Shown one piece after another: positions 19,734-44,452 of a stretch of 64,000 nt of DNA. Origin of the DNA: Meiothermus sp. Pnk-1. Its GTDB lineage: Bacteria; Deinococcota; Deinococci; Deinococcales; Thermaceae. The stretch is taken from positions 62,001-126,000 of the forward strand of contig NZ_QKOB01000003.1 of assembly GCF_003226535.1 (NCBI RefSeq), read 5' to 3'. The translations under genes and the position numbers were made by a program. Below the pieces are notes generated by a model, which searched no databases, was not told the origin of the DNA, and saw only the letters and a program-made list of their open reading frames with translations. Numbering within the stretch: the first letter of the stretch is position 1; each line of letters opens with the position of its first letter.

Positions 19734-19780
19734 ACCCGAGGGTTTGTGGGAGTGCGGCTATGTTGCTCAAAGGAGGAGCC

Positions 19781-20527
19781 ATGCGAAGGTTTAGCCTGGA
19801 AGTCTGGGGGGAGCTGGCCTGCTTCACCCGGCCTGAGTTCAAGGTCGAGCGCTTCAGCTACCCCCTCATCACCCCCAGCGCGGCGCGGGGCATCTTCGAC
19901 GCCATCTACCTGGACTTTGACCCACAGGGCAAAAGGCCCCTCATGTACTGGCAGGTGGAGCGCATCGAGGTGCTGCGCCCGGTGCGCTACATCAGCCTCA
20001 TGCGCAACGAGGTCAAGGAGAAGGCCAGCCTGCGCAACATCCAGACCTGGATGAAAGACCCCTCGAGCTTCGAGCCCCTCTACGCCGACGCCACCAAGGA
20101 CGACACCGGCCAGGACACCAAGGGCCGCACCCAGCGCCAGACCATGGCCCTCAAGGACGTGCGCTACCGCCTCACCGCCCACGCGGTGCTCTACCGCGAG
20201 GAGCACGCCCTGCGGCAGAAGATCGAGCACAGCTTCGAGCGCCGGGCCAGAGCCGGGCAGTGCCTCTACCAGCCCTACCTGGGCTGCCGCGAGTTCACCG
20301 GCTACTTCCGGCTGGTGGAGCCCGGCGAGGAGGCCCGGCCCGTGCCCTACAGCGAACGGATCGGCTGGATGCTCTACGACGTCTTCGACCTCTCGCGCCC
20401 GGGGGCGCCGCTGCGCACCGACAAGGGCGAGAAGCCCCAGATCAGCCTCTTCGAGGCCGAGGTGGTGGAGGGGGTGCTCGAGGTGCCCCCCTACGAGAGC
20501 CCGCAGGTGAGAAAAGGAGGTGTGTGA
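19781..20527 (+). CDS. cas5c: Cas5c (Cas5d), type I-C crRNA-processing subunit
   Basis: 248-residue RAMP protein. In type I-C it replaces Cas6, cutting pre-crRNA at the repeat hairpin and staying bound to the 5' handle. Family features are the start [35 protein letters not shown] split over residues 4-39 and [11 protein letters not shown] near 167. AAAGGAGGAGCC precedes the ATG. The gene follows Cas3 by 47 bases and overlaps cas8c (TGATG). Confidence 0.93.
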
Positions 20528-22368: not shown

Positions 22369-22392
22369 ACCCACGCCAGAAGGAGGCTTGAT

Positions 22393-23373: not shown

Positions 23374-23375
23374 CG

Positions 23376-24590: not shown

Positions 24591-26065
24591 GCCACCTGCT
24601 CTCCATCTCCCTCGGCCCGGTGCAGGACTTCATCGCCGCCGCCCGCCGCACCGCCGACCTGTACGCGGGTTCGCAAATCCTGCAGGAGCTGAGCAAGGAA
24701 GCTGCAAGGCATCTGGCCAATAACGGCGCTACGCTGATCTTCCCCGCCGACAAAGACGCCGACGGAGCCAACAAGATTCTGGCCGAGGTAACGGCAGACC
24801 CCAAGCGGCTTGCCGAGGAGACCAAAAAAGCCGTTCAGGAGAGGCTCTTGGGGCTTTGGAACGAGACCATCGGCAAACTCCCCGCCGAGCAAAGAAACCT
24901 GATCGACCAAGCAAGGGCCAAAGAGCAGCTCGGGAGTTTCCTCGAGTTCTACGCCGCTTGGGTTCCCCTGGACGGCGACTACCCCCAAGCCCGCCTGGCG
25001 GTGGAGCGCCTGCTGGCCGGGCGCAAGGCCCTGAGGGATTTTCTGCCTACTCAGCAAAACGACGACGGCGTGCCTAAGTCGGCCCTGGACCCCGCCCGCG
25101 CGGCGGTCATCGACCCGCGCCGCTGGGCCGGGGTGAATATCCGCCTCGAGGACGGTACTTACCGTCCCCTGCGCATCAAGCCCACCGAGCACCTCGACGC
25201 CCTCTCGCTGCTCAAGCGCTGCTACGGGGCTCTCAAGTCCGGGGTGGTGGTGGACACCCGCACTATGGCCCGGCGCTCCTGGAGGCCGGAAGCAGAGCCC
25301 GACGAGCGCTACGGCGAGGAAGACGACCATATCCCAGAGCCTCAGCCCTACCTGGCCATCCTGGTGGCCGACGGCGACCGCATGGGCGAGCTCATCGCCC
25401 GCCAGGACGACCCCCAAGCCCACCGCGGGCTTTCTCGCACCCTGGATGGTTTTGCCCGGAAAGCTCGAGCCATCGTGCCCCAATACGGCGGTTTCATGGT
25501 CTACTCCGGCGGCGACGACGTGCTGGCCTTTTTGCCGGTAAACCGGGCGGTGGAGTGCGCCAAGGAGCTCTCGGATGCCTTCCGCCAAGAGGTAAAGGGC
25601 ACCCTCTCGGCGGGAGTGGCCCTGGTACACTACCGCGAGCCGCTCTCCATTTCTCTGCAAAATGCGCGGGATGCGGAGAAAGCCGCCAAGAACGGCGGGC
25701 GCAACGCGCTGGCGGTGGCCCTGCACACCCGGGGCGGCTCGCCGGTCGCGGTGGTGCAGCCCTGGGACGAGCTGTCCTGGGGCGAGCTGCTGGAGGCCTA
25801 CCAAAACCGCCAGATTACCCGCGGCCTGGCCCATGAGCTGCGCGATCTGGTGCTGGAGTGGCAAGACGGGATGCGGGCCGATTACCTGCACAAAGAGGCC
25901 CAGCGGGTACTGGGCCGCAAAGAGGCCCGCGGCCTGCGCATCCCCGCCCCCACCGCCGACACCCCCACCTACCGCAAGGCCCTGCTGCGCTTTGTGGATC
26001 AGCTCATCATCGCCCGCTTCCTGAGCGGGCTCGAGGAGGAAGCCCATGCCGGAACGGGTGCTTGA
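24587..26065 (+). CDS. cmr2: Cmr2 (Cas10) lacking the HD domain
   Basis: 492-residue Cas10 of type III-B. It starts directly with the first Palm region (ISLGPVQDFIAAARRTADLYAGS within residues 6-28). LVADGDRMGELI is near 260, and the cyclase motif YSGGDDVLAF near 306 is intact. No N-terminal HD nuclease is present, and it is much shorter than HD-bearing Cas10 proteins. On target-RNA binding it should make cyclic oligoadenylates but not cut ssDNA. The downstream CARF protein is the obvious receiver. Confidence 0.93.
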   Translation: MSHLLSISLGPVQDFIAAARRTADLYAGSQILQELSKEAARHLANNGATLIFPADKDADGANKILAEVTADPKRLAEETKKAVQERLLGLWNETIGKLPAEQRNLIDQARAKEQLGSFLEFYAAWVPLDGDYPQARLAVERLLAGRKALRDFLPTQQNDDGVPKSALDPARAAVIDPRRWAGVNIRLEDGTYRPLRIKPTEHLDALSLLKRCYGALKSGVVVDTRTMARRSWRPEAEPDERYGEEDDHIPEPQPYLAILVADGDRMGELIARQDDPQAHRGLSRTLDGFARKARAIVPQYGGFMVYSGGDDVLAFLPVNRAVECAKELSDAFRQEVKGTLSAGVALVHYREPLSISLQNARDAEKAAKNGGRNALAVALHTRGGSPVAVVQPWDELSWGELLEAYQNRQITRGLAHELRDLVLEWQDGMRADYLHKEAQRVLGRKEARGLRIPAPTADTPTYRKALLRFVDQLIIARFLSGLEEEAHAGTGA

Positions 26066-27179
26066 GATCCACGCCCTAAGCCCCTTGCTCTTCCGCGATG
26101 GCCGGCCTTTCAGCGCCGCCGACGGCACCGAGACCGCCGCCCAAAGCCTGCCCCTGCCCCTACCCAGCACCCTGGCCGGGTTCGTGCGCACCCAGGTCGG
26201 CCTGGCCGCAGGTATGGGTTTTAGCCACCAGGAGCTGCAAAACCTGCACGGCCTGCAGGTGTGCGGCCCCCTGCTGGCCCGGGGGGGCGAAATTCTGCTG
26301 CCCGCCCCGCGCGACGCGGTGATCTACAAGGAAGGCGAGAAGCCCCAGCTCATGAAGCTGCGCCCCTTTAGCCCGCCCGAAGGCGCCGGTTGCGACCTGC
26401 CGGGAGGTTTGCTGCCCCTCGAGGTCACCCAGGACGTCAAGCCCGAGAGCGGCTACAACTTCTGGACCGCGGGCGAGATGGAGCGCTGGCTCTTGGATGA
26501 GGAAGTGCTTCCTGCGGAGAAGATCTCCGGCCTGCCCAGCGAAACCCGGGTGCACGTGGCCATGGACCCCGCCAAGGGCAAGGCCCGAGAGGGGCAGCTA
26601 TTCAGCGTGGCCTACCGGCCCCTCGAGACGGGCAAAGGTCCGGAAGACTACCGGCCTGCTTCCCTGCGGGTACGGCTTTCCTTGTCCAACGGCTGGACGC
26701 CAGCCCGCATCGGCTACCTGGGGGGTGAGCGCCGCCCGGTGGCGGTGGAGGTGAAGGAGGGCCTTTCCGAGTACTGGTACGACTGCCCCGAGGGCCTCAA
26801 AAAGCGCTTTGCCGGGCTGGGCAAAGGGGCCCGGGTGCGCTTGGTGCTGGCCACCCCGGCCCTCTTCGAGGGCGGTTGGAGACCGGGCTGGGTTGAAAAA
26901 TCGGGCACCGGCGAGCTCCACCTGCCGCGCGGCCTGAGCAAGGTAAGGCTGAGGCTGGTCGCGGCGGCAGTGGGGCGGCGCGAGCCGGTGAGCGGCTGGA
27001 GCCTGCGGGCAAAACAGCCCAAGGCGGTGCGCTGGATGGTGCCGGCGGGTAGCGTGTACTTCTTCGAGGTGTTGGAGGGCAACCCGGCTGACCTACTGGA
27101 AAGCTGGCTCAGGCCCGTAAGCGACGACGAACAAGACCGCAAGGACGGCTTTGGCCTTGCGCTGTGGGGAGTGTGGTGA
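26046..27179 (+). CDS. cmr3: Cmr3 (Cas5-group RAMP of type III-B)
   Basis: 377-residue RAMP that binds the crRNA 5' handle. The start LEIHALSPLLFRDGRPFSAADG (residues 5-26) and the segment PLPLPSTLAGFVRTQVGLA are characteristic. The ATG overlaps the end of cmr2 by 20 bases. The family glycine-rich tail is represented by VGRREPVSGWSL. Confidence 0.92.
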   Translation: MPERVLEIHALSPLLFRDGRPFSAADGTETAAQSLPLPLPSTLAGFVRTQVGLAAGMGFSHQELQNLHGLQVCGPLLARGGEILLPAPRDAVIYKEGEKPQLMKLRPFSPPEGAGCDLPGGLLPLEVTQDVKPESGYNFWTAGEMERWLLDEEVLPAEKISGLPSETRVHVAMDPAKGKAREGQLFSVAYRPLETGKGPEDYRPASLRVRLSLSNGWTPARIGYLGGERRPVAVEVKEGLSEYWYDCPEGLKKRFAGLGKGARVRLVLATPALFEGGWRPGWVEKSGTGELHLPRGLSKVRLRLVAAAVGRREPVSGWSLRAKQPKAVRWMVPAGSVYFFEVLEGNPADLLESWLRPVSDDEQDRKDGFGLALWGVW

Positions 27180-27181
27180 AG

Positions 27182-27976
27182 ATGCAGGTGAAGATGATTT
27201 TCTGGCAGGCCCTCACTCCGGTGCACCCTGGCACCGGGCAGGACTCGAGCAGCGTGATCGACCTTCCGGTAGCCCGCGAAGCCGCCACCAAGTTTCCGGT
27301 TATCCCGGCCAGCAGCCTCAAGGGGGTGCTGCGCGATGGCCGCGAGGACGAGGGGGCCAACAGGATCTTTGGCTCGTTGGAGAAGGCCGCCGAGCTCACC
27401 CTCACCGACGCGCGGGTGCTCTTTTTGCCGGTGCGCTCGTATGCGGGCACCTTCGCTTTTCTGACCTGTCCGCTGGTGCTGGAGCGCTTGGGGCGCGACC
27501 AGAAGGCCCTGGGGCTTCCCGGCCTGCAAGCGCCCATCCCCACACCCCAGCAGACCGAGGCCCTGCTGCCGCAGGAAAGCGAGATTGTGCACAACGGCCA
27601 GGTGATCCTCGAGGACATCGACCTCACCGCCAAGCCTGGTGCGGTTAACGACCTGGCGAAAGAGCTGGGCCAACGGGTTTTTGGCCCCGAGGCCGCATAC
27701 TTCCAAAAGCGCTTTGCCCTGGTTTCCAACGACGTGTTCTCCTATTTCTGCGAAACCGCCCTGGAGATCATCGCCCGGGTCAGGCTCAATTCGGACTCCA
27801 AAACCGTGGAGCGGGGCGGGCTTTGGTACGAGGAGGCCATCCCGGCAGAGACCGTTTTTTCGAGCTTCGCCATTGGCACCGACGGCTTCGAGGAGCTCGA
27901 CCGTTCCTTTATCCAGCTCGGCGGCCAGGCCAGCGTGGGCCGGGGGCTGTTGCGGCGGCTGGGGGGTGGGGTATGA
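27182..27976 (+). CDS. cmr4: Cmr4 (Cas7-group backbone, target RNA cleavage)
   Basis: 264-residue RAMP forming the Cmr backbone and cutting target RNA every six bases. The pattern LTPVHPGTGQDSSSVIDLPVAREA (residues 10-33) with the conserved Asp, VIPASSLKGVLR and GGQASVGRGLLRR near the end are typical. ATG at 27182 lies 2 bases after cmr3; GTG codons just upstream in frame are alternatives. Confidence 0.93.
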   Translation: MQVKMIFWQALTPVHPGTGQDSSSVIDLPVAREAATKFPVIPASSLKGVLRDGREDEGANRIFGSLEKAAELTLTDARVLFLPVRSYAGTFAFLTCPLVLERLGRDQKALGLPGLQAPIPTPQQTEALLPQESEIVHNGQVILEDIDLTAKPGAVNDLAKELGQRVFGPEAAYFQKRFALVSNDVFSYFCETALEIIARVRLNSDSKTVERGGLWYEEAIPAETVFSSFAIGTDGFEELDRSFIQLGGQASVGRGLLRRLGGGV

Positions 27977-28365
27977 GCCTGGTGACCCGCGCGCAGGAGG
28001 ATATGGAACTCGCGCTAAAACTGGTGAGCCAGGTTGAGGAGGACTTCAAGGATAACAAAGGCACCGGAACCAAAGGACGCTATCAGGCTTTATGCCAAGA
28101 ATTCCCGGTCATGGTGCGTACTTCGGGGCTTTGTCAGGCTATTGCCTTCAGCGAGGCAAAAAAGGGTGATGAAGAGGGTTTGCCCAGAGCCCACAAACTC
28201 TTGCTGAACCATGTCGAGAAAATTCTTGGCTCAGGAAACGGCTCGATACTTGAAAAAATCCGAAAGGCATCAGCCATTGAATACATGCACATGACGCGCA
28301 GAGTCCTGGATTCTTGGGTTTACTTCAAGCGGTTCTCCAAGAGCGTGCTCACGGTGGAGGATTAG
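27973..28365 (+). CDS. cmr5: Cmr5 (Cas11-group small subunit of type III-B)
   Basis: 130-residue all-helical small subunit that lines the Cmr complex. The order QEDMELALKLVSQVEED, RYQALCQEFPVMVRTSGLCQAIAF and the C-terminal EYMHMTRRVLDSWVYFKRFSKS are the usual Cmr5 landmarks. Its base composition is noticeably lower in G+C than its neighbours, as is the start of cmr6. Overlaps cmr4 by ATGA. Confidence 0.9.
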   Translation: MSLVTRAQEDMELALKLVSQVEEDFKDNKGTGTKGRYQALCQEFPVMVRTSGLCQAIAFSEAKKGDEEGLPRAHKLLLNHVEKILGSGNGSILEKIRKASAIEYMHMTRRVLDSWVYFKRFSKSVLTVED

Positions 28366-28367
28366 CG

Positions 28368-29374
<1,007 letters not shown>

Positions 29375-29378
<4 letters not shown>

Positions 29379-30424
29379 GCACCGTCATCCTCACCACCGT
29401 AGGCACCAGCCTGTTGATGAACGCCCGGCGCGAGGCGAAGGTCGCCGACCACGAGATCATGGAATACCTTTCTCGCGACCCCAAATCTGCCAGCGCCGAG
29501 ACCAACTCGCTTTTGCGCATCCGCCAGCGGGGGGACTCGGTGGTGCTACTGCATAGCGATACCCCCGAAGGGGAGCGGGCAGCTACGCTGCTGGAACTCT
29601 ATCTGCAAGACCAAAAGGTGGAGTGCCGCAAAGTGCGCATTGTGGGCCTGGCCTACGAGGCCCAGGGCTTTGTGGACTACGGCCTTAAGCACTTTGTGCA
29701 AACCCTGGCGGCGGAGATTCGCCGGGCCAAGCGGGAGCAAAAAGAAGTTATCATCAACGCCACCGGTGGCTTCAAGGCCGAGATTGCCTACGCCACCGCG
29801 CTGGGGCTGGTGTTCAAGGTGCCGGTTTACTACATTCACGAGAAATTCGGTGATGTCGTGACCCTCCCCCCGTCCCCCTTTGGTTGGGACAGCGAACTCA
29901 TTGCCTGGAACCACGAGTTTTTCGACTGGATCGACGCCGAGCTGCGCCCCAAACGCGAAGTGGAGTCCCGGGCCGCCGGCTTACCCGAGGCGCTTCGGGT
30001 GCTGCTCGAGGATTTTGAGCTAGACGGCCAAGTCTATACCAGCCTCTCGCCTCTGGGCCAAGCCTACCTCGAGGCCTTCCGGGGCGAGCTCGAGCAGGCC
30101 CAGACCATTCCCATCTACCTCGCACCCAAGGCCAGGCGCACCTGGGAGGGCCTCGAGCCTGCCGAAAAAGAGCGCTACCGCAAACTCCTGCAACGCCTGC
30201 GCCTGCCCAACCGTGCCGCCAACAGCGAGCGCAAAAGCGGTGGGGGCGATGCGCTGGGCTTCCCTAAGGGCAACACCGACGAGCGGGTGTTCTACGCCGA
30301 AAAAGAAGGGGCGCTCTATGTATTCGCCCTTACGCACCATGGTCCGGAGTATGACCGAATGTGCCAGGAGGGCTTTCGCTGGTCCGATTACGCCGACCAT
30401 GACTTCACCCTTTGGGAGGGCTAG
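29375..30424 (+). CDS. CARF-domain effector with RelE-like C-terminus (Cami1-like candidate)
   Basis: 349 residues. The N-terminal CARF Rossmann fold has TTVGTSLLMN at residues 6-15 and the ligand loop INATGGFKAEIAYA near 127, which binds cyclic oligoadenylate. After a linker, residues about 260-349 carry RKLLQRLRLPN, DERVFYAEKEGALYVFALTHHG and EYDRM, a basic beta-rich layout resembling RelE/ParE toxins rather than HEPN (no RxxxxH) or PD-ExK. CARF-RelE mRNA interferases activated by type III signalling (Cami1) are established. Translationally coupled to cmr6. The toxin assignment is inference. Confidence 0.75.
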
Positions 30425-30426
30425 TT

Positions 30427-31083
30427 TTGGATGACTTGGACGACCTTCTGCCCCAGGCCGCCCTCTCACCTCCCACCGGGGGCGAACCCCTGCCTATCAG
30501 CGCCCTGGCCCAGTACACCTACTGCCCCCGCCGGGCAGCGTTGATTCTGCTGGAGGGCGAATGGGAGGACAACGAGTACACCCTGCGCGGTGCGCGCGCC
30601 CACGAGCAGGCCGACATTCCTGAGGGGCTGTTGCGTGAAGGGGTGCGAATCGAGCGAGCCTTGCCCCTCTGGTCCGAGCGGCTGGGGTTGGTGGGCCGGG
30701 CGGATGTGGTGGAGTTTGTGGAAGGTGCGCCCTATCCGGTGGAGTACAAGGTGGGCCGGCGCTGGCCCCGCGAGCTGGCCCGCAAAGCCGCCGAGGTGCA
30801 GCTCTGCGCCCAGGCCCTGTGCCTGGAGGAGATGTTCGGCCAGAGCGTGCCGGAGGGGGCCATCTTCAGCAAGGCCAGCCAGCGCCGCCGGGTGGTGCGC
30901 CTGACCCCCGAGCTGCGCGCGCTCACCCTGGCCACCCTTGGCGCCTTGCGCAAGCTCATGCAACAAGAGCGCCTGCCCCCACCCACCGCCGACGAGCGCT
31001 GCCGCCACTGCTCGCTCCTAGCGGTGTGTATGCCCGAAGTGCCCCAGGCCCTGGCCCTCTGGCGGGCCCAGCAAGGATCATGA
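30427..31083 (+). CDS. cas4: Cas4 (adaptation nuclease with Fe-S cluster)
   Basis: 218-residue PD-(D/E)XK exonuclease that trims prespacers and selects PAM. The first cluster cysteine is in AQYTYCPRRA near residue 33, the last three in RCRHCSLLAVC near 196. The nuclease core is ADVVEF and PVEYKVGRR. The TTG start at 30427 is chosen because GGGAGG lies 8 bases upstream; no ATG is available. Overlaps cas1 by ATGA. Confidence 0.92.
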   Translation: MDDLDDLLPQAALSPPTGGEPLPISALAQYTYCPRRAALILLEGEWEDNEYTLRGARAHEQADIPEGLLREGVRIERALPLWSERLGLVGRADVVEFVEGAPYPVEYKVGRRWPRELARKAAEVQLCAQALCLEEMFGQSVPEGAIFSKASQRRRVVRLTPELRALTLATLGALRKLMQQERLPPPTADERCRHCSLLAVCMPEVPQALALWRAQQGS

Positions 31084-32099
31084 CCACCGAGCTGCTGAAC
31101 ACCCTCTACGTCCAGACCCAGGGAGTCTATCTGCGCCTCGAGGGCGATACCCTGCGGATTCAGCACGAGGAGGTAACCCTCCGCAACGTGCCGCTGCACC
31201 ATCTGGGAGGGTTATCGCTGTTTGGCAACGTGCTGCTTTCGCCCTTCTTGCTGCACCGCTGCGCGGAGGAGGGCCTCGAAGTGGCCTGGTTCACGGAGTC
31301 GGGCCGCTTTCAGGGGCGGCTTGCGGGGCCGGTCTCGGGAAATGTGCTGCTGCGGCGTGCTCAGTACCGGGCGCTGGACAATCCTTCGACCTGCTTGTAC
31401 CTGGCCGCGCGCTTTGTGGAGGGCAAGCTCAGGAACGCTCGGCTGGTGCTCCAGCGGGCGGTGCGCGAGCGGGGCGAGACCGAGGCGCTGAATCAGGCCC
31501 TTTTTGAGCATGAAGCGGCCCTGCGCCAACTTCCCCAGGCCCGCTCGGTGGACGAGGTGCGGGGCCTCGAGGGGCAGGCCGCAAGTGCCTATTTCGCGGC
31601 CTTTGGCGACCTCTTGCTCTCGGGCGAGTTTCGCTTCGATGGGCGCAACAAACGCCCCCCGCGCGACCCGGTGAACGCCCTGCTGGGCTTTGTGTATGCC
31701 CTACTCACCACCCAGTGCACCGCCGCCTTGGAAGGGGTGGGGCTCGACCCCCAAGTCGGCTTTCTGCATGCCCTGCGATCCGGGCGCAATGCCTTGGCCC
31801 TGGATCTGCTCGAGGAGTTTAGAGCCTGGTGGGCCGACCGGCTGGTGCTTTCGATGATCAACCGCAAGCAGCTATCTCCAGAGCACTTCGAGGAGCGCCC
31901 CGGCGGTGCCGTTTTGCTGAACGAGGAAGGGCGAAAGGCGGTGATCGTAGCCTTTCAAGGCCGCAGGCAGGAAACCCTACAGCACCCCTTGTTCAAAGAG
32001 CCCGTACCCATCGGGTTGCTGCCCCACATCCAGGCCCGCCTGCTGGCCCGCTACCTGCGGGGCGACCTGCCCGAGTACCCCCCGTTTGTAGGAAGGTAG
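31080..32099 (+). CDS. cas1: Cas1, type I-C integrase
   Basis: 339-residue integrase that forms the Cas1-Cas2 spacer-acquisition complex. The N-terminal beta domain (LYVQTQGVYLRLEGDTL) is followed by the helical active domain with Glu in LEGQAASAYFAAFG, His in VGFLHALRSGR and Asp in LALDLLEEF. The sequence type matches Cas1 of I-C loci. All catalytic residues are present, so adaptation could still work in principle. Confidence 0.94.
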   Translation: MTTELLNTLYVQTQGVYLRLEGDTLRIQHEEVTLRNVPLHHLGGLSLFGNVLLSPFLLHRCAEEGLEVAWFTESGRFQGRLAGPVSGNVLLRRAQYRALDNPSTCLYLAARFVEGKLRNARLVLQRAVRERGETEALNQALFEHEAALRQLPQARSVDEVRGLEGQAASAYFAAFGDLLLSGEFRFDGRNKRPPRDPVNALLGFVYALLTTQCTAALEGVGLDPQVGFLHALRSGRNALALDLLEEFRAWWADRLVLSMINRKQLSPEHFEERPGGAVLLNEEGRKAVIVAFQGRRQETLQHPLFKEPVPIGLLPHIQARLLARYLRGDLPEYPPFVGR

Positions 32100-34394: not shown

Positions 34395-34736
34395 TTAGCC
34401 ACCGCCTCGTTCACCAAGGGCCACACCCGTACCCCGCTGCGCGGCGAAAGAAGCGCCACCCCACGGCTTGCGCCGAAACAAGCGTCTCGCTACCCCGCCT
34501 ACCGGCGGCGAAAGAAGCGTCTCGCTCGGCGAAAGAAGCACCTCCACCGGCTGCAGCTCGGGACTAAAGACCAGCCGTATCTCTGGCGGTACCTCAGCCA
34601 GAGCTCGGCTGAAGGTGAGGTAGAGGATGCGCCACCCCCGGAGGGCGCGGGCCACCGCCACCAAGGTGAAGGTCTTGCCCGCTCCGGCTGAGGTGCGGGC
34701 GGCGTTTACCACGGCGAGTTGTTCTGGAGTGAGCAT
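34395..34736 (-). pseudogene. UvrD/Fbh1-like helicase, N-terminal fragment truncated at repeats
   Basis: Begins MLTPEQLAVVNA, then Walker A SAGAGKTFTLVAVARAL and motif Ia-like RILYLTFSRALAE, the pattern of SF1 helicases of the UvrD/Fbh1 type. After about 70 residues the frame enters the GAAAGAAGCG repeat block and the protein becomes low-complexity (VLLSPSETLLSPPVGG). It starts 24 bases after the 513-residue gene, so it was probably the last gene of the same operon. The rest of the helicase is not present nearby. Confidence 0.75.
34444..34542. repeat. Short-repeat array, right inverted copy
   Basis: GCGAAAGAAGCG units at 34444, 34508 and about 34528, and GCCACCCCACGGCTTGC (34455-34471), which is the exact reverse complement of 34003-34019. 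With the left array it frames a 435-base segment. It also forms the 3' part of the truncated helicase ORF. Confidence 0.8.
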
Positions 34737-34760
34737 CGTTAGGATCCCAATTCGTACGGT

Positions 34761-36302
34761 TTAACCTGTTTTGGTAGAACGCTCCAGCCCCAGGCCAAGC
34801 CGCCACCAGTTCTGGGGCCACCCCCTGGGGGCGAGAGCAAGAGATAGGACTTCGCTTCCCAGGCACACTTCGACTCGTAGGGGGACCAGCTCACTCCGTG
34901 CGACCAGGGTACCCTGGGCTTCAGTCCTCACCAATTCCTCCTCCCGTACCAGGCGCTCTCCTGCCAGGACTCGAGTTCGTACGGCAAAGCCCGGGGGATG
35001 GGTGCGAACGAAAGCCCCCTGGGGTCCGACCCAGGCCTCGAGGCGTACCCTCACCTCAACGGGCAACACTGCGATCCGGCGCCACTCGTCCCCTCGGCCG
35101 TCGGTTCTCACCTCCACGACGAGTTCGTCCTTTGGGGCTGACCCCTCCCCAATCTTCTGCGCCAGCTCCTCTGGCCTCTCCCTTGCCTCCCCCTCGGAGG
35201 CGAGCAGAAAGCGCAGAGGGTGCTGAGCGGGGTCGAAGCCGATAGGGCGCACCTCCAGGGGCTCACCAAGCTTCCAGACGAGTTCGGAGAAGCGAATGGC
35301 GAAAGCCTGGTGGTGCAGGCGGAAGCGCACAATCTCGCCTTCCTCGAACGAGACCTCGAGCTCTTCGGGGATGGGGTCTCCCTCGGTGGTGAAGCGGGGC
35401 ACCCAGTCAAAGCGCCTGAAGCGCCCATCCTCCAGCGTGAGCTTCCCATAAACCTTCCATCCCTCCAGCAGGGGCTCTCGGTTGAGCGTGGGTCGGATCT
35501 CCTCGAGGCTGGGGAGGGACTTCAAGAGCTCGACCCTCACCTGCTTGTGCCCGAGACGGGTGCTTTTTTGCCTGGCGGCTGGCTTATCTCCCCTTAGCTC
35601 CCAGTAGAGGTCGTGTAGGGCCTTGTCCGAACGGTTGAAGAGGAGGCGCACGGGGTCGGGCTCTCCCAGGTAGAGGCCGGCCTCTTGGAGAAAGCCCAGG
35701 ACCGCTCCCTCGTCGCATAGATCCGGGACCGCCTCCTCTTCAAGCAGGAGTTCCATGGCTGCCTGGAGCTTGCGGAACACTCGCTCGTATGGCTGGGCTC
35801 TTTCAGGAAGCACCCCGGTTTGATAGAAGGCCAGGAAAGAATCCTTGAGCGCGTTCAGGCGCAGGGCCTTGAAGTGGAAGATCGCATCCAGGGTGCCGAT
35901 GAAGTCCCGAGCGCCGTTTTCGTGGAATTTCAGGCAGCGCGATGTCTCGTCATGCCAGTCCAGAACCCCCCACAGGCGGTCGTACTCGACTTGGGTAGGG
36001 AGATGACGCCCCTCAATCCCCAGATCTTTCAGGAAATTCGGCCAGAAGGCCCGGTCGTTTTCCGGCACCTCCCGGTAGAGGAAATAGCCTCGCAGATAGC
36101 CTAGGAGCACGTGGGCGGGGATCAGTACTTGGTTTTGTGAGCGAATGGTCTCCAGCAGATTCCTCCATCGCTCACCCCGCCACACCTGACGCATGAGGGG
36201 TTTTACCCCTTCGTAGTCCTCCTGGGCCACGCGGGCCTGCGCTACCCCTCCCTGTTCCACGGCCTTATTCAGGTTCAACGCGTGGATCCACGGGTCAACC
36301 AC
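34761..36302 (-). CDS. Unrecognised 513-residue protein of the exonuclease-helicase operon
   Basis: Start taken as GTG at 36302 (VDPWIHALNLNKAVEQGG), just after the stop of the upstream coiled-coil gene. The N-terminal half is helical with aromatic-rich motifs (LLGYLRGYFLYREVPENDRAFW, CLKFHENGARDFIGTLDAIFHF). The C-terminal half (from about 290) is beta-rich with repeated charged strands (FDWVPRFTTEG, VEVRVRLEAWVG). No catalytic motif or known family seen. It could be a structural or DNA-binding partner of the helicases. Not membrane bound. Confidence 0.8.
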   Translation of the reverse strand: MVDPWIHALNLNKAVEQGGVAQARVAQEDYEGVKPLMRQVWRGERWRNLLETIRSQNQVLIPAHVLLGYLRGYFLYREVPENDRAFWPNFLKDLGIEGRHLPTQVEYDRLWGVLDWHDETSRCLKFHENGARDFIGTLDAIFHFKALRLNALKDSFLAFYQTGVLPERAQPYERVFRKLQAAMELLLEEEAVPDLCDEGAVLGFLQEAGLYLGEPDPVRLLFNRSDKALHDLYWELRGDKPAARQKSTRLGHKQVRVELLKSLPSLEEIRPTLNREPLLEGWKVYGKLTLEDGRFRRFDWVPRFTTEGDPIPEELEVSFEEGEIVRFRLHHQAFAIRFSELVWKLGEPLEVRPIGFDPAQHPLRFLLASEGEARERPEELAQKIGEGSAPKDELVVEVRTDGRGDEWRRIAVLPVEVRVRLEAWVGPQGAFVRTHPPGFAVRTRVLAGERLVREEELVRTEAQGTLVARSELVPLRVEVCLGSEVLSLALAPRGWPQNWWRLGLGLERSTKTG

Positions 36303-36303
36303 C

Positions 36304-36813
36304 CTACACCCCCTCCCCCTCCAGCCAGGTGAGCAGGGCCCACTCCAGCACCAGGCCGGTACGCACCCGCCGCCAGTCGGGCGCCTCACCGCCGAGCGCC
36401 CGAGAAAGGGCCACCTCCCGCTCTGCCCAGATCGCCTTGAGCCAGGGCTCCAGCCTGCTCCCACCCAGCTTACGAGCCTCCTCGATCAGCGTCCGGTCCC
36501 AGAGCTCGAGCGCCTGCGCCAGGTGGTGAAAGAAGTCCGCCCCCAGTACGGGCCGCGAGGCCAGATTCAAGGCCTCTTTACAGCGCCTATGGGCTTCTTG
36601 CTCCTCCCTTAGGCTTTGCTCGAGTTTTCTGACCCGCTCCTCGAGGGCTCGAAGGGCCTGCTGTTCTTGCTCTGCCACAGCCTGCTTTAGGCTTACAATC
36701 TCTTCGGCTTGCTCATCTAAACGCTGCTCCAGTCGCTTTTTTTCCGCCTCCCAGCGCTGTCTATCCTCCTCCCACTTTCGCTCATACCACCTCAGCGCCT
36801 CTTTGCAGTCCAT
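36304..36813 (-). CDS. Coiled-coil protein, 169 residues
   Basis: ATG at 36813 overlaps the stop of the upstream gene (ATGA). Residues about 10-85 form a continuous heptad coiled coil (KRLEQRLDEQAEEIVSLKQ, then RALEERVRKLEQSL). A compact helical tail follows (FFHHLAQALELWDRTLIEEA, TGLVLEWALLTWLEGEG). No known family. Together with the next coiled-coil protein it may form an oligomeric scaffold for the helicase operon. Confidence 0.8.
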   Translation of the reverse strand: MDCKEALRWYERKWEEDRQRWEAEKKRLEQRLDEQAEEIVSLKQAVAEQEQQALRALEERVRKLEQSLREEQEAHRRCKEALNLASRPVLGADFFHHLAQALELWDRTLIEEARKLGGSRLEPWLKAIWAEREVALSRALGGEAPDWRRVRTGLVLEWALLTWLEGEGV

Positions 36814-37781
36814 CACTCCTCCCTCAGGCGGGGCGAGGAGGGGCGTTGCCCTTCCTGGAGCAGCGCCTCCAGGCGGAAGGCGTGGGTCCTTAGCCAGCGA
36901 GCGAGGGGGAGGCTGGCCAGGTCTAGCAGCAGCTTCTCCAGCCCCACGAGCACCATCCCCTCCGGTTCGCCCACGAGCAGCTCACGGTTGCTGTGGCGGA
37001 GGGCGGGGTGATCCTCCCCCTTGAGAAAGGCCCAGTATCCCTCGATAAGGGCGATCACCCGCTCTTCCGCCTTATCTCCGAGGTTTGGGTAATCCAGCAC
37101 CAGGACCCGAAGGAGGGCCTCCTGCGGGAAGGGCTCGGGAAGGGTCTCCTTGAAGCTACTGAGCCCGGCGAGCTGGGCCTCGAGGTGCTCCTTCTGTACC
37201 GCGATGCCCTCGAGTTCCCGTACCCTGGCCTCTAGCTCATCCACACGCTTTTTGTAGCCCTCAAGCTGCCCTTCCAGCGCCTCTTTGTCTGCCTCCACCT
37301 TCGCGAGCTCAGCGCTTAAGCGATCCCTCTCTTCAGCAACCCGCGACAGGTCCTTGCGCAAGTGCGCCGCTTCCTCCAAGGCCCTTCCTTTGGCACTCTG
37401 CGCTTCCTGTACTGCCCTTTGTTCCTTTTGAAGCTTGGCTCTGAGCTTTTCAGCCTCGTCGGCCTTTTTCTGGAGCTTCTTCTGGCTTTCCCGCAGCCTG
37501 TGCAAGAGGTCTCGATCATGAGCGGCTGGCTTCTGGGCTCCTTCGTCAGGTTGCGCGGATGGCGGCTTTGGCTTGACCTCAACAGCCTCAACAACGATTG
37601 TTGCCTGAGGTGGGTTCTTCGCGGATTGTTTGTCCGGGCTTGGGGTGGCGAGCGTTTCCTTGAAGTTTGGAGACAATGCCCCCAGGGCTTTTTTCAAGGA
37701 AGACACAGAGCCTTTGGCCTCGGTTGGAAGGCCGAGGACCTTTCGCGCCGCTTCCTTCAGGATCTCCTCAAGCTCCGACAT
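36813..37781 (-). CDS. Coiled-coil protein, 322 residues
   Basis: Begins MSELEEILKEAARKVLG inside the 3' end of the giant helicase gene, behind GGGAGG. A Pro-rich linker (about 45-85) leads to a long coiled coil at about 90-215. The C-terminal globular part (FPQEALLRVLVLDYPNLGDKAEE, VLVGLEKLLLDL) is helical. The plan resembles GrpE-like or structural adaptor proteins only in general shape; no family recognised. Translational coupling implies stoichiometric production with its neighbours. Confidence 0.8.
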   Translation of the reverse strand: MSELEEILKEAARKVLGLPTEAKGSVSSLKKALGALSPNFKETLATPSPDKQSAKNPPQATIVVEAVEVKPKPPSAQPDEGAQKPAAHDRDLLHRLRESQKKLQKKADEAEKLRAKLQKEQRAVQEAQSAKGRALEEAAHLRKDLSRVAEERDRLSAELAKVEADKEALEGQLEGYKKRVDELEARVRELEGIAVQKEHLEAQLAGLSSFKETLPEPFPQEALLRVLVLDYPNLGDKAEERVIALIEGYWAFLKGEDHPALRHSNRELLVGEPEGMVLVGLEKLLLDLASLPLARWLRTHAFRLEALLQEGQRPSSPRLREE

Positions 37782-40700
37782 CCGCTACCTCCCGCCGCAG
37801 CCGGCGCTCGTGGCGAGCCCAGCCCCGCTCGGTAAGCCCGTAAAGCGGGCTGCCCTCGTACGCATCCTTTGACTCGAGATACCCCTGCTTCAGTGCCTCC
37901 TCGAAGGCGCGCTCCAGCTCCTTGGGCTTGATGAAGGAGAGGTGGCCGAAGAAGCGGTTGTCCGTGTACTTGCGGCCCAAGGAGCCGCTCTTGCCCCGGT
38001 CCTTGCCCCGCAGGGCCATCAGGGTGCTGCGCCTTCCCAGATACATGTAGCGGGCTTCCGGCGACCGGGCGCTTTCCTCGGCCAAGGCGAAGAAGGCCAG
38101 CAGCGTGTCCAGGGGGCGGTAGGCCCGCTCGAGTTCCTCTTCATCCAGCCCCTCCAGGGCTTCCCAGGGACCAGCATCCTTGGTGCAGATGTCGCAGACC
38201 CCGCAGCCACCAGGAGACTCGCCTAGGTGATTGAGGAGGACCTGAGCACGGCACCGTCCGTTTTCGGCATAAGCCTGCACCCTGCTGAGGCGTTTCTTGG
38301 ACTGCTCCCTTAACTTTCCCTGCTCCTCTTGCCAGTCCAAGTAACCACTCTTCAGATGATCGCCCGCCTGAATGCGGAGCAGGGGCTCTCGGTAGTGGTA
38401 GAGGTGGATTTTCCGTTCCCGGAAGAGCTGATAAAGCTTCCGATCCAGCTCCAGGGCTTCCTCCGGGGAAATGCGGGAGAAGTCCAGCTCGTCCCCTCGC
38501 TCGCTACCCTTGTAACCGGCCTTGTAAAGCAGGGCCAGGGCTTCCTGCGTCAGGTGCTCTCTTAAGACGTCGCTAGACTCCAGCAGGAGGGCCTTGCCCA
38601 GCGGAAAGTCATATTCCAGAATTCCAGCGCGCTCGAGGCTGGAGAGGGTGCGTTCGAGATTCTCCAGGCCTACTTCCCGCCGAAGGGGTGCGGCAGCCTC
38701 TTCCTCCTCTTCGTCCTCCTCGAGCAGATCCTCCTTCACTTCTTCTTCATCGGGCTCTTCGTAGATTTTCCGGTAAATCTCTTGGCGGTAGCCGACAAGA
38801 GCCCTTCTCTCCTCTAAGAGGCGGATGAGCTGCTGGACGAACTTCTCATGGGCCCGCCCACCACCGTGGTCCACCCCCACCATCCACTCCAGAAAGCCCC
38901 AGTCCGACCTGGTATGCAGCAGCAGGCAATAAGCCTCCTTTCCATCCCGCCCTGCGCGCCCCGATTGCTGGACGTACTCCTCCAGGCTGCGCGGGGGCCG
39001 CCAGTGGACCACCAGGCGGATGTTCGCCTTGTCGATGCCCATACCGAAGGCGGTGGTGGCCACCATGACCCGGGTCTCGCCAGAAGTGAAGCGCTCCTGG
39101 GCCTCGCGGCGGGGAACCGGACCCAGCCCCGCGTGGTAGGCCTCCACCTCCAGGTTGGAAAAGAGACGGCCCAAGGCCCAGGCCAGTCGCTCGGCCTCGG
39201 CGCGGGTGGCGGTGTAGACGATGGCGCTGCCTCCTTCCCCACACTCCGTAAGCCAATGAAGGGCTTTGACCAAGACCTGGAACTTGCCCACTTCCCCCTG
39301 CACCTTCTTCACCACGAAGCGAAGGTTGGGGCGGTGGAAGCTCTCGGGCTTGATCCGCTGGAAGGCTTCCAGCTTAGCGGCCTTCTTCAACCGCTCCAGG
39401 TCCTTCGGGGTCAGGGTGGCGGTGAAGAAGCTCTTGGGGACCCCCTCCAGGGCCTCCAGCTTCTCCAGGGCTTTGAGGTAGTCCGGTCGGAAGTCAAAGC
39501 CCCACTCCACTAAGCAGTGGGCCTCGTCAAACACCACCCGCCGAAGCCTGCCCCTGGCGTGTTCCTCTTGAATCAGCTTCCAAAGAGCCTCGCTCCGGTT
39601 AAGTCGCTCGGGGCTCACGTAAAGAAGCTGTACCCGCCCGGTGCTGACCTCATCCAACACGCCCCTTTGCTCCCCCGCGCCCATCAGCGAGTGCACCGCA
39701 CCCACTGGCAAGCCCAGCTCCAGAAGCCGGTCAGCCTGGTCCTTCATCAGGGCTACCAGAGGGGAGACCACCAGGGTAAGACCCTGCTGCATAAAAGCGG
39801 GAAGCTGGAAGGCCAGGCTCTTGCCGAAGCCGGTGGGGAGCAGAGCTACCAGGTCTTCTCCTTCGAGGGCCGCCTGGATGGCCTGGGCCTGTTTGGCCCA
39901 GCGGTCCTCATCCACCAAAAGTCCGTAGACTTCCTGCGCGATGCAACGGGCTTTTTCCAGCGGCTCGAGACCGGATTGCAGGATTTCCCTGAGCCGGCGC
40001 AGCGCCTCCTCTTCCAGCTCGTCCTGGGGGAACCAGGCCCGGTCAACCCCTAGGATGTTCGCAATCCGGTCGTAAAAGTCCTTCCGGTCCTTGGGGAAGT
40101 GTCGGTGGACACCCGGCGGCAGGGCGCGGTAAAAGACCTCCTGGTAAGCAGCATTGAGTAGCCTCTTGTCCCATAGGATGAAGGCGCCATCTCCTACCTC
40201 TCGCTGATCCCGGATGAGCCGACCGAAGGCTTGAGCGAAGGAGAGGGCGGCCTTGGGCAGGTAATAGTCCCACCATTTGTCCAGCCCTTGCTCATAGGCC
40301 CACTCCATGCGCTTGGTCAGGAGCAGCGAGGGCAGGGGGAAGGGGATCCGCTCCAGGCTCACCAGCTTCAAAGCCGGGAAGTCCACCCCTTCCATGTAGC
40401 TCCGCGAGCCTAAGGCGGCCACCGGGGCCTCGGGGTCCTGCTTGATGCGGCTGGCCACGTCCTCTCGCTCCTTGCGGGTGAGGGGGGCCAGGAGGTGCGG
40501 GTGCTCTTCGAGGGCCTCCTTGGCCTCTTGCAAGCGCCTCAAGCTGGTGAAGAGGGAGAGGCTGCGGTGGGATCTGGGTACGAGCACTCTCAGCTCCTCA
40601 TGGAGCATGCGTTGGAAGCGAGGCAGGGTGCTTTCGCGGGCCTCCGGGAGGTGGCGGGGCACCAGGAGGTGGGCCTTATCGTAGGGCAGGGAGGGGGGCA

Positions 40701-42762
40701 GCCGCCGAGTCTTGATTTCCTTCAGGCCCAGCACCCGCTTAAGCAGCCCAAAGCCCTCGGGGTCTTGCTCGGTGGGCACGCTTAGGGTGGCGCTGGTGAG
40801 GATGGTGCTTTTGAAGCGGGGCCATAGCTTTTCTTCGAGAGTACGCGAGACGTCGATGGGCTGAGCCAGGTGCCGCCAGCTCCCGGTGGTTGGATCCCAC
40901 TCTGAGAGGTGGAGCCGGTTGGGGTCGGGCTTACCTTGAGGCGACGCCAGGATCTGGCGTCGCTCGAAGAGAAGATCCAACGCTCCTTTGAGATACTCCC
41001 GAATGGGCGCCAGATCGCGGACCATGAGGCTTTTCGGGTCCTGGCCGATGGCCTCGAGCGCTTCCTTGAGTTCACGAAGGATATCGATGAGCAACCGCTC
41101 TTCCCGGTTGATGCGAGGCCACTCCTCGAGCCTTCGCCAGGTGCCGCTCAGCCCCAGGCTAAGGCCGTAGCGCTGGTCCCCCGAACCCCGGTTCTTGATG
41201 AAGGCCACCAGATGACGGGAATAGTTGTCCAAGGCCTCGCGCAGTCTGGGAAGCAACTTCTGGACGACCTCGTTAGCCTTGTCCCGCTTTTCCTCGGACA
41301 GCTCGGCCAGCCGACGGTCATCCTTGAGGAGGCCCCGGTCCTTCTTGGGATGGGCCAGGCGGTTGATCCGGTGGGTGAGTTCCTCGTGGTCCAGGACCAG
41401 AGTGAGGGCTTCGGTGGCGGTGTCCTCGAGGTGGTGAGCCTCGTCGAGCACTAGATGGGCCTCCTCTGCGGGTTCTTCTTCCCTCTCCTCTTCCCGCAGA
41501 AAGCTGGCCAGAAGGTACGCCTGATTCGTCACCAAGATTTGGGCGCTCTTACGCCGAGCGAGCTGTTTCTGGAAAGCACAGGTGTGGAAAAAGGGACAGT
41601 CCACCCGGCAGCGGCGGGGATTGGTGCCTACTCGGTCTCTCGCCTCGCGGAAGCCCCGAGAGAAATGCCAGTAACCGGGGAGGGCCTCGAGGTCGTGCCC
41701 CCCTAAAGCCGCATAGTGCAGGAGCAAGCCCACCGCAGCCCTGAGTTCTTCGTCCTCTTCCTTCCTGGCGTCCAAGAATAGCTCGAAGAGGGCCTCAGGG
41801 CAGAGAGTGTCGCGAGGACTTTTGACCAGGGCGGCCTTGACCTCATACCCCTTCTCGCCCATCCCCTTAAGCTCCTCCAGGGCCTGGGCCTGGAGTACTT
41901 TGGTATGGGTAGCCACCCAGGTCTTTTCACCCCGGTGCAAAGCGGGGTAGAGATAGCCCTTGGTCTTTCCGGTGCCGGTAGGAGCCTCGAGGAGCACTCG
42001 GTGCCCACCCTGCAGGGCCCTTTCTACCTCTTCGAACATCTGCTCCTGGGCTGACCTCCTCTGAGGCAGGAGGTCTTTCCCCAGGCGCGAGGGATGCGGC
42101 AGGGGTCGGCCCTCGTACGAAACCGACTCCACCAAAGCGGGTGTGGCCAGGAGTTCCTTGACCTGGACTGAGGTCTCCGGGAAGAGTTCCCCCTCGGTGA
42201 GCCCAAGCTCCCGCCAGGCTCGGGCCACCCCGTCGGGCAGCTTTTGCAGCACCAGCCCGGCCAGGACCCTCCAGGTAGCCTCCACGTCGGCCTGGGCCCG
42301 GTGGGCGCCCTCCAGTGGTGCGCCGGTGAAGTAGGCGTGGAGATCCCCCAGGCGGTAGCCGGAAAGCCCCTGGGGTGGAGTGGGAAAGACTAGCTGGGCC
42401 AGGCGCAGGGTATCCAGAGCGGGTTTCTTCGTAGGAGGGAGATTCAGACCAACCTTCCCCAGGGCGCTCTCTAGGACGGGTAGGTCGTAGCGCAGCAGGT
42501 TGTGGCCGAGGAGGGGGCGGTCCCCGATGAAGTCCAGGAGTTCCTTGAGTGCTTTCTCCGGCGGCACTTTTCCCCGCTCGTACTCGTCGAAGGCGATGCC
42601 GGTAAACTGGAAAGCTTCGTGGTCGGCCTTGAGTGGTTCTGAGGTAGCTGCGTACCAGTGGCAGGTCCGGCCTTCCGCGTCCTGAGCAGAGATCTCCAGG
42701 ATCTCAGCTTCCTCTGGGTTTGGGGAGGTGGCCTCGAGGTCCAACGCTACGTAGGGTTTCAT
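37768..42762 (-). CDS. Triple fusion: DEDDh exonuclease - DinG/XPD-like helicase - RecQ helicase
   Basis: 1664 residues from the ATG giving MKPYVALDLEATS; an upstream ATG would add 12 residues. Residues 1-180: DnaQ-type exonuclease with DLE (8-10), LLGHNLLRYD near 90 and HRAQADVEAT near 152. Residues about 230-900: DinG/XPD helicase with EAPTGTGKT near 258, Fe-S cysteines in DTLCPEAL and RRCRVDCPFFHTC, LVLDEAHHLED and QAFGRLIRD. Residues about 940-1664: RecQ with LLPTGFGKSLAF, VFDEAHCLVEWGFDFRPDY, QQSGRAGRDG and a CRAQ...CGVCDIC zinc site. Exo-DinG fusions are known; adding a full RecQ is unusual. It heads a five-gene operon beside the CRISPR locus. Confidence 0.92.
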   Translation of the reverse strand: MKPYVALDLEATSPNPEEAEILEISAQDAEGRTCHWYAATSEPLKADHEAFQFTGIAFDEYERGKVPPEKALKELLDFIGDRPLLGHNLLRYDLPVLESALGKVGLNLPPTKKPALDTLRLAQLVFPTPPQGLSGYRLGDLHAYFTGAPLEGAHRAQADVEATWRVLAGLVLQKLPDGVARAWRELGLTEGELFPETSVQVKELLATPALVESVSYEGRPLPHPSRLGKDLLPQRRSAQEQMFEEVERALQGGHRVLLEAPTGTGKTKGYLYPALHRGEKTWVATHTKVLQAQALEELKGMGEKGYEVKAALVKSPRDTLCPEALFELFLDARKEEDEELRAAVGLLLHYAALGGHDLEALPGYWHFSRGFREARDRVGTNPRRCRVDCPFFHTCAFQKQLARRKSAQILVTNQAYLLASFLREEEREEEPAEEAHLVLDEAHHLEDTATEALTLVLDHEELTHRINRLAHPKKDRGLLKDDRRLAELSEEKRDKANEVVQKLLPRLREALDNYSRHLVAFIKNRGSGDQRYGLSLGLSGTWRRLEEWPRINREERLLIDILRELKEALEAIGQDPKSLMVRDLAPIREYLKGALDLLFERRQILASPQGKPDPNRLHLSEWDPTTGSWRHLAQPIDVSRTLEEKLWPRFKSTILTSATLSVPTEQDPEGFGLLKRVLGLKEIKTRRLPPSLPYDKAHLLVPRHLPEARESTLPRFQRMLHEELRVLVPRSHRSLSLFTSLRRLQEAKEALEEHPHLLAPLTRKEREDVASRIKQDPEAPVAALGSRSYMEGVDFPALKLVSLERIPFPLPSLLLTKRMEWAYEQGLDKWWDYYLPKAALSFAQAFGRLIRDQREVGDGAFILWDKRLLNAAYQEVFYRALPPGVHRHFPKDRKDFYDRIANILGVDRAWFPQDELEEEALRRLREILQSGLEPLEKARCIAQEVYGLLVDEDRWAKQAQAIQAALEGEDLVALLPTGFGKSLAFQLPAFMQQGLTLVVSPLVALMKDQADRLLELGLPVGAVHSLMGAGEQRGVLDEVSTGRVQLLYVSPERLNRSEALWKLIQEEHARGRLRRVVFDEAHCLVEWGFDFRPDYLKALEKLEALEGVPKSFFTATLTPKDLERLKKAAKLEAFQRIKPESFHRPNLRFVVKKVQGEVGKFQVLVKALHWLTECGEGGSAIVYTATRAEAERLAWALGRLFSNLEVEAYHAGLGPVPRREAQERFTSGETRVMVATTAFGMGIDKANIRLVVHWRPPRSLEEYVQQSGRAGRDGKEAYCLLLHTRSDWGFLEWMVGVDHGGGRAHEKFVQQLIRLLEERRALVGYRQEIYRKIYEEPDEEEVKEDLLEEDEEEEEAAAPLRREVGLENLERTLSSLERAGILEYDFPLGKALLLESSDVLREHLTQEALALLYKAGYKGSERGDELDFSRISPEEALELDRKLYQLFRERKIHLYHYREPLLRIQAGDHLKSGYLDWQEEQGKLREQSKKRLSRVQAYAENGRCRAQVLLNHLGESPGGCGVCDICTKDAGPWEALEGLDEEELERAYRPLDTLLAFFALAEESARSPEARYMYLGRRSTLMALRGKDRGKSGSLGRKYTDNRFFGHLSFIKPKELERAFEEALKQGYLESKDAYEGSPLYGLTERGWARHERRLRREVADVGA

Positions 42763-43769: not shown

Positions 43770-44441
43770 CTAGCCGCCGCCTGGCCGCACCTGGGTGTAC
43801 AGGACCCTGGCGAGGGGGGAAAAGTCTCCCGACACGAACTCCAGCCAGGGGTGGCGTGACATCTGCAGGTCCTCCTGGAGGATGAAGTTGCCGGAGCGCA
43901 ACTGGTTGAGAACCGCAGCGAGCATCTCCGAGAGCGAAGGAAACGCCACCTCAGCCTCGGGCAGGTCGGCCCCGAAGACGAGGATCTGCCCGAATGTCCC
44001 GGATGGCCCCGGCCTGACGTCAAAGCCAATATAGTTGCCGGAGCCGTCGGCCAGGAAAGGGATGTGACCTGTCCCGGGGAAGTCCTCGCTCAGCCGGGGG
44101 TCGGCAGGGGAGGGGCTCTGCACGATGCCCGAATCGCGCAGTTCGAGGAGGGCCCGGTACTCCTCGGCAATCTGGTCCAACCGCAGGAGGTCGGCACCGA
44201 AAAAGACGCCGTTGCTGAGGTTGTCCCTCTGCCCGTTGTGCCGCGTGTACAGGTGGCGGATCTGCTCCGGGAAACGGGTACCGGTCAAACGCTCGACTCG
44301 TGAGAAGTCCTTGGAGGAGGCAGGCGGGCCCAGCCGCTCGATGAATGAGGGGTGGAGACGCGCGAGCTCCCGCAGGAGACTATCGAGGGTAGACTCAAAC
44401 TCATCCACAGTGGGCTCAACCGATTCTATCAAACCAGTCAT
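43770..44441 (-). CDS. SMI1/KNR4 (SUKH) family protein
   Basis: 223-residue protein from ATG 44441. The SUKH pattern is visible: SSKDFSRVERLTGTRFPEQIRHLYTRHNG (split at residues 45-75), IPFLADGSGNYIGFD and FPSLSEMLAAVLNQL. SUKH proteins often act as immunity proteins against nuclease or deaminase toxins in polymorphic toxin systems. Here no toxin gene is adjacent. The presumed IS end lies only about 10 bases upstream of the start, so its own promoter was probably displaced. Confidence 0.8.
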   Translation of the reverse strand: MTGLIESVEPTVDEFESTLDSLLRELARLHPSFIERLGPPASSKDFSRVERLTGTRFPEQIRHLYTRHNGQRDNLSNGVFFGADLLRLDQIAEEYRALLELRDSGIVQSPSPADPRLSEDFPGTGHIPFLADGSGNYIGFDVRPGPSGTFGQILVFGADLPEAEVAFPSLSEMLAAVLNQLRSGNFILQEDLQMSRHPWLEFVSGDFSPLARVLYTQVRPGGG

Positions 44442-44452
44442 CAATTGAGATA

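Follow-up and report, generated by a model that had tools for sequence, protein, structure and literature searches.

The stretch analysed here, 64,000 nucleotides of Meiothermus sp. Pnk-1 (contig NZ_QKOB01000003.1, positions 62,001 to 126,000 of the forward strand; hereafter the window), carries an operon of four minus-strand genes at positions 34761-42762, whose ends touch or overlap in the open reading frame (ORF) calls. From position 42762 downwards the gene order is EDR, encoding an exonuclease-DinG-RecQ fusion, followed by CC322, CC169 and U513, which represent three undescribed protein families. Our findings show that this operon is under purifying selection and has moved between genera, and we lean towards reading it as an accessory system that moves horizontally and most likely serves in defence against phage or plasmid DNA. 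The four genes are as follows:

37768..42762, minus strand: EDR, exonuclease-DinG-RecQ fusion, 1664 amino acids (Pfam domains; motifs invariant in 16 homologues; ratio of nonsynonymous to synonymous substitution rates, dN/dS, 0.16-0.28)
36813..37781, minus strand: CC322, coiled coil and conserved C-terminal domain of about 100 amino acids (alignment; profile matches in every intact operon)
36304..36816, minus strand: CC169, 170 amino acids as called, coiled coil and conserved C-terminal domain (alignment)
34761..36302, minus strand: U513, 513 amino acids, helical N-terminal domain and beta-rich C-terminal part (no Pfam, PADLOC or NCBIfam match; alignment; structure models)
35583..36302, minus strand: all-helical N-terminal domain of U513, residues 1-240 (AlphaFold2 model)

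CC322 overlaps EDR by 14 bases and CC169 overlaps CC322 by 4 bases. The start of EDR (MKPYVALDLE) was picked from homologues.

The EDR protein

Pfam searches identify RNase_T, ResIII/Helicase_C_2 (DinG), DEAD/Helicase_C and RecQ zinc-binding domains in EDR, the chain continuing past its DinG domain with the RecQ and zinc-binding parts:

42265..42750, minus strand: DEDDh 3'-5' exonuclease domain, EDR residues about 5-166 (PF00929, E = 1e-13; DLE, D and H-x4-D in 16/16)
40114..42063, minus strand: DinG/XPD-type helicase domain with four iron-sulfur (Fe-S) cysteines, residues about 234-883 (NCBIfam DinG profiles; PF13307)
38857..39894, minus strand: RecQ helicase core, residues about 957-1302 (TIGR00614 above cut-off; PDB RecQ, E = 1e-70; motifs in 16/16)
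38182..38268, minus strand: RecQ zinc-binding cysteines (PF16124 above cut-off)
37816..38013, minus strand: RQC-like winged helix, weak (PF09382, E = 0.02, below cut-off)

The first-pass annotation of this DNA, made from the letters alone, had placed an exonuclease, a DinG and a RecQ part with intact motifs in one 1664-residue chain, and this description stands. The window's EDR contains the DEDDh residues and the RecQ cysteines, and each of its two helicases has its Walker A, DEAH and motif VI sequences. All 16 aligned EDRs keep the five DEDDh residues (D, E, D, H, D), as well as both Walker A, both DEAH and both motif VI sequences, and 14 keep the four DinG Fe-S cysteines; the RecQ zinc site has its four cysteines in most homologues and is eroded in L093. 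The NCBIfam DinG profiles match EDR below their equivalog cut-offs, and an HRDC domain, which is variable in the RecQ family, has no match anywhere in the window's genome. The operon as a whole is under purifying selection, with dN/dS values of 0.16-0.38 across all four genes (Nei-Gojobori, close pairs).

The partner proteins

Beyond coiled-coil composition, CC322, CC169 and U513 have no family match in Pfam or PADLOC, and the two of them run against NCBIfam, U513 and CC169, gave nothing there; the earlier statement that the partners belong to no recognised family is thereby borne out. The coiled-coil proteins match LmuB, JetC and PbeC in PADLOC, matches that we rejected as reflecting coiled-coil composition, and family support is absent for the names 'BglG antiterminator' and 'DUF713' that plasmid annotations give to U513 or CC169.

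The full-length structure model of U513 is of moderate quality, with a predicted local distance difference test score (pLDDT) of 78, and its whole-chain fold matches in PDB and BFVD, which were spurious and immunoglobulin-like with a template modelling (TM) score of about 0.1, were rejected as noise. Modelled alone, residues 1-240 reach a pLDDT of 93 and a predicted TM score of 0.89, and the search of this domain against PDB structures returned no match, the best E value being 0.6 and TM scores reaching about 0.2 at most. A good model together with the lack of a PDB counterpart suggests that the N-terminal domain adopts a fold unrepresented in PDB, and hence apparently new. The invariant residues of U513 in the alignment (RGY...RE.PEN and R132) resemble no known catalytic site, and the protein may be an adaptor or a nucleic-acid-binding protein. 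Viral contigs yielded no relatives of U513; a match to its C-terminal part in genome G003 was discarded because a wider profile failed to reproduce it.

Distribution, transfer and decay

Full-length U513 is present in 12 of the 50 Thermaceae genomes, with fragments in two more. Every full copy is directly preceded by EDR, CC322 and CC169 in the same order, EDR being represented by its end alone where a contig edge cuts it. The first-pass annotation had asked whether the gene order recurs in other Thermaceae and in distant genomes. It does so in twelve other Thermaceae loci and in three genomes from two other families (G053, G058 and G064), where the same four genes are found and EDR shares about 40% identity; a relative of the same genus as the window (G001) is one of the carriers of the operon. 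In total, 16 aligned loci from three families hold the four genes with coupled ends, and every full-length EDR in the search of the phylum is accompanied by the partners. Beyond Deinococcota, the searches covered plasmids, phages and viral contigs; among the ten matches listed for EDR in phage records, all were to the RecQ domain and none covered 80% of the query. A pattern scan for U513, the sole scan of genomes beyond Deinococcota, returned six loci, all of them from Thermaceae.

The pairwise identities of the four genes are strongly correlated across the 16 loci (r = 0.92-0.97), which indicates that they diverge and move as a unit. The operon has moved between genera: in the EDR tree the Thermus copies are scattered, a single Thermus clade is rejected (approximately unbiased test, p ~1e-45) and the T. 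brockianus EDR is sister to the Meiothermus luteus copy. It has also been lost within a species. The operon is intact in T. thermophilus HB27, where it spans TT_RS10770-TT_RS10755, strain HB8 retains only an exonuclease piece at the same place, and in strain SG0.5JP17-16 EDR is broken and the partners are intact. In other genomes EDR or U513 is truncated or CC322 is interrupted, with the qualification that assembly may account for some of the pieces found at contig ends. The interruption of CC322 is seen in a Meiothermus metagenome genome (G017, L050:9140-12318), where an insert of about 2.3 kb splits the gene, making this locus a candidate natural knock-out.

Taken together, the patchy spread, the transfer and the loss within a species point to an accessory system and not to a housekeeping repair gene, a candidate that we therefore reject. 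In this regard, the fusion is not the widespread repair protein of the phylum that the first-pass annotation had named as grounds for abandoning its defence proposal, being confined to a minority of species, mobile and often decayed.

Genomic neighbourhoods

Two neighbours of the operon in the window, a CRISPR-Cas locus and a SUKH gene, are found where the first-pass annotation had reported them:

16494..32099, plus strand: type I-C (cas3, cas8c, cas7c, cas1) and type III-B (cmr1, cas10, cmr3, cmr4, cmr6, ring-nuclease-like) CRISPR-Cas genes (NCBIfam and PADLOC profiles)
43770..44444, minus strand: SUKH-1 (SMI1/KNR4) protein, upstream of the operon (PF09346, E = 2e-17)

The nearest CRISPR-Cas gene lies about 2.2 kb from the operon. 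In HB27, type III-B genes are 3.8 kb and I-C genes 8 kb away. The A. silvanus operon has I-C adaptation genes on one side and, on the other, WYL, vWA, tubulin-like, BrxL, DrmD/BrxH-like helicase and methyltransferase genes, and the T. oshimai operon is preceded by a NERD/UvrD-like helicase gene only 3 bp upstream, with BrxL before it. A VapBC pair lies 0.6 kb upstream of the T. aquaticus operon. Defence or toxin-antitoxin genes are also adjacent in all four contexts that are not megaplasmids: (i) type I restriction-modification genes 166 bp downstream in G053, (ii) a split DUF499 antiphage-type ATPase gene, a Swt1-like HEPN gene and HicAB in G041, the nearest ORF being 58 bp off, (iii) type III-A genes and Cas6 within about 2.5-7 kb in G058 and (iv) a RES-Xre toxin-antitoxin pair 0.3 kb upstream in G024. 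These non-megaplasmid neighbourhoods may be more telling than the megaplasmid ones.

Proposed function and alternative explanations

The four-gene linkage, the integrity of the motifs, the co-divergence, the transfer between genera, the patchiness, the selection, the decay and the defence-type neighbours are what lead us to favour defence. RecQ-type motors move 3'-5' and DinG/XPD-type motors 5'-3', and the direction of DEDDh exonucleases is 3'-5'. Given their opposite polarities, two such linked motors could run in one direction along a duplex. On balance, we think it somewhat more likely than not that the operon encodes a mobile anti-invader machine in which two helicases of opposite polarity and an exonuclease are combined, RecBCD-like, in one chain. 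According to this model, the RecQ and DinG motors of EDR would sit on opposite strands of one duplex and travel in the same direction, and the DEDDh domain would degrade exposed 3' ends during travel. U513 and the two coiled-coil proteins would identify the invader by a DNA end, a D- or R-loop, a stalled fork or a partner's cut, and would load EDR onto the recognised site, the partners presumably being loaders or sensors. That the proteins form a complex, what it acts on, which part senses the target and that the operon confers defence are predictions of this model.

Several observations weigh against the defence reading. CRISPR, Argonaute, HEPN/MNT, toxin-antitoxin or restriction-modification genes are likewise found in eight control windows, all taken from the same megaplasmids. 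The megaplasmids that often carry the operon being defence-rich throughout, its proximity to defence genes does not clearly exceed this megaplasmid background, and its location is by itself weak evidence. Thus, the proximity to defence genes proposed in the first-pass annotation holds at most loci, whose neighbours do not look random, but the defence-island argument built on it is weaker than it appeared. In T. brockianus, M. taiwanensis, T. altitudinis and T. scotoductus there are few or no defence genes nearby, the operon matches no PADLOC system and no target-recognition domain is identifiable in it. Finally, copies of the T. thermophilus group adjoin reverse gyrase, which fits DNA maintenance as well.

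This last point bears on the best surviving alternative, an accessory repair or recombination complex, which we regard as unlikely. In such a complex EDR would process stalled forks, D-loops or G-rich structures in hot, polyploid, megaplasmid-bearing cells, its partners would be loaders, and the proximity to defence genes would result from shared megaplasmids, in keeping with the defence-rich control windows. Members of the RecQ, DinG and DnaQ families have roles in repair. The operon adjoins reverse gyrase in T. parvatiensis and T. thermophilus SG0.5JP17-16 and a small topoisomerase ORF in HB27, and an earlier comparison placed the fusion among thermophily-linked gene differences (Omelchenko et al., 2005; PMC1274311). 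On the other hand, the operon occurs in a minority of species, is lost or broken within T. thermophilus and has been transferred between genera, and no reverse gyrase lies beside the inspected copies outside the T. thermophilus group. In addition, transposon sequencing of T. thermophilus found the 'recQ' gene of pTT27 highly permissive to insertions and part of the shell pangenome (PMC13140390), although this tolerance in HB27 is a weaker argument because, as that paper itself states, polyploidy makes essential genes look permissive.

Two further explanations appear improbable. In the first, the operon would serve a larger BrxL/DISARM-like system, one that includes vWA and tubulin-like genes, as its effector or as an accessory module, and some Thermus would have retained it alone. 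Tubulin_2 (PF13809) genes occur in 10 of the 50 genomes, eight of which also hold operon sequence (p = 0.0013 overall, p = 0.00016 in genera other than Thermus, values whose independence is overstated by the shared ancestry of the genomes), and in four genomes the two lie 2.5-15 kb apart on one contig. In annotated loci, genes for vWA, BrxL and an unknown protein line up with Tubulin_2, and T. oshimai has this module with BrxL just upstream of the operon. Nevertheless, most Thermus copies and all three copies from outside Thermaceae lack the module in the inspected flanks, and in G008 the module occurs where the operon is missing. The module may work together with the operon or simply travel with it. 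In the second, the operon would degrade Cas-cut DNA for I-C/III interference or supply ends for spacer acquisition. DEDDh and DinG domains do occur as CRISPR-associated proteins (PADLOC matches), and CRISPR-Cas genes lie near the operon in the window, HB27, A. silvanus and G058, but copies beside type I restriction-modification, DUF499/Swt1, RES-Xre or VapBC genes have no CRISPR genes in the inspected 20-37 kb, and a strict CRISPR accessory is for this reason disfavoured.

If defence is the function, the operon adds a system that has recognition proteins of its own and, unusually, combines two motors and one nuclease in a single chain; if repair, it is a mobile and dispensable repair machine in thermophiles. 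In both cases it yields three protein families whose partners are clear, together with an apparently new fold. Its presence in the model strain HB27 and its natural loss from HB8 make it tractable for deletion and restoration.

Relation to known systems

The fusion itself has been known since 2005, when a DnaQ-DinG-RecQ three-domain protein was described as unique to HB27; it belongs to the same protein family as EDR and is absent as such from HB8 (Omelchenko et al., 2005). The available part of that paper describes neither the operon partners nor the spread, mobility or defence role. We found no publication that describes the operon or its spread, or that assigns it a role in defence, in a literature search that covered few subscription journals or preprints outside PMC, and no papers for locus tags TTP0116-0119.

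Among described proteins, ExoDinG, a DinG-like subgroup found for instance in Staphylococcus aureus and Bacillus subtilis (PMC11981726), likewise begins with a DEDDh exonuclease and continues with a DinG-type helicase. The S. aureus protein is a 3'-5' exonuclease with undetected helicase activity and an incomplete Fe-S site (PMC11981726), whereas EDR mostly keeps its four Fe-S cysteines, adds RecQ, zinc and RQC-like parts, and has three obligate partner genes. The word RecQ is absent from the text of this 2025 DinG review. WRN, the Werner helicase, has in common with EDR a DEDD exonuclease fused to a RecQ helicase; it differs in that it is eukaryotic, lacks the DinG helicase, uses another exonuclease branch and has no such operon. 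With RecBCD/AddAB, EDR would share the working logic of two opposite-polarity motors and a nuclease, as predicted from the families. The folds, in contrast, are unrelated (RecQ and DinG helicases of superfamily 2 and a DEDDh exonuclease), they stand in one chain, and no Chi or RecC-like part was identified.

Helicase profiles of Dpd (DpdF), Shango (SngC), PsyrTA and BREX (BrxH) in PADLOC match the RecQ part of EDR. These matches concern the helicase motors only, the other components of the four systems being absent from the operon: in PADLOC the partners match no Dpd component, including the DpdA-type 7-deazaguanine transferase, and in Pfam and PADLOC searches none of PglZ, BrxC, PglX, BrxL and BrxA/B was found in the operon, BrxL lying near two copies only.

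A plasmid locus of Deinococcus actinosclerus (CP029776.1; L105:11229-19186) encodes a divergent exonuclease, DinG and RecQ protein of 1759 amino acids with about 65 extra N-terminal residues relative to EDR. Its neighbours are a UvrD-type helicase upstream and an 886-residue protein downstream, none of which matches CC322, CC169 or U513, suggesting an exchange of partners. As a more tentative extension, the two kinds of loci could belong to a new class of defence machine, in which a single-chain bipolar RecQ and DinG helicase-exonuclease would replace RecBCD-type hardware, be aimed by three undescribed families and work with exchangeable partner sets (coiled-coil proteins and U513 in Thermales-type loci, UvrD and the 886-residue protein in Deinococcus).

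Helicase remnant and other observations

One further minus-strand feature lies beyond the end of U513:

34395..34736, minus strand: helicase gene remnant, outside the conserved operon (8-residue gap relative to intact ORFs, then repeat; missing from other operon copies)

The first-pass annotation had taken this ORF for a UvrD/Fbh1-like helicase gene and the fifth member of the operon. Its overlapping minus-strand arrangement stands for the four conserved genes; the fifth is a stray remnant of 113 amino acids, about 49 of which align, with 8 residues missing, to a 57-residue stretch of intact ORFs of 575 and 528 amino acids located on other contigs of two relatives. The rest of the frame enters copies of a dispersed repeat, and none of the other operon copies has the remnant downstream. 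Its shortness and its lack elsewhere set the conserved unit at four genes, 34761-42762. The dispersed repeat (GCTTCTTTCGCCGAGCGA and its surroundings, window positions 33934-34552) forms inverted pairs beside the remnant; its core has 11 copies in the genome, and the reversed control pattern has none.

Rows of vWA, tubulin-like (PF13809), an unknown protein of about 686 amino acids and BrxL were observed in A. silvanus pMESIL01 (L087:22175-37521), T. oshimai pTHEOS01 (L089:1482-9441) and L053:12230-16667, the first continuing with a DrmD/BrxH-like helicase and then a DNA methyltransferase. Such a row resembles a BREX/DISARM-related system that includes a tubulin-like component, and we found no literature on a tubulin-like/BrxL/vWA BREX system in Thermus. 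In G041 (L055:12057-18178), a transposase-like ORF interrupts the DUF499 gene, with the Swt1-like HEPN part beyond it and HicAB adjoining. In the window, an AAA_14/DUF4143 ATPase gene (45726-46949) lies upstream of the SUKH gene, and an ORF at 60489-61736 combines a HATPase_c_4 domain with a short piece that PADLOC matches to type I methyltransferases, possibly as a fusion or a relic.

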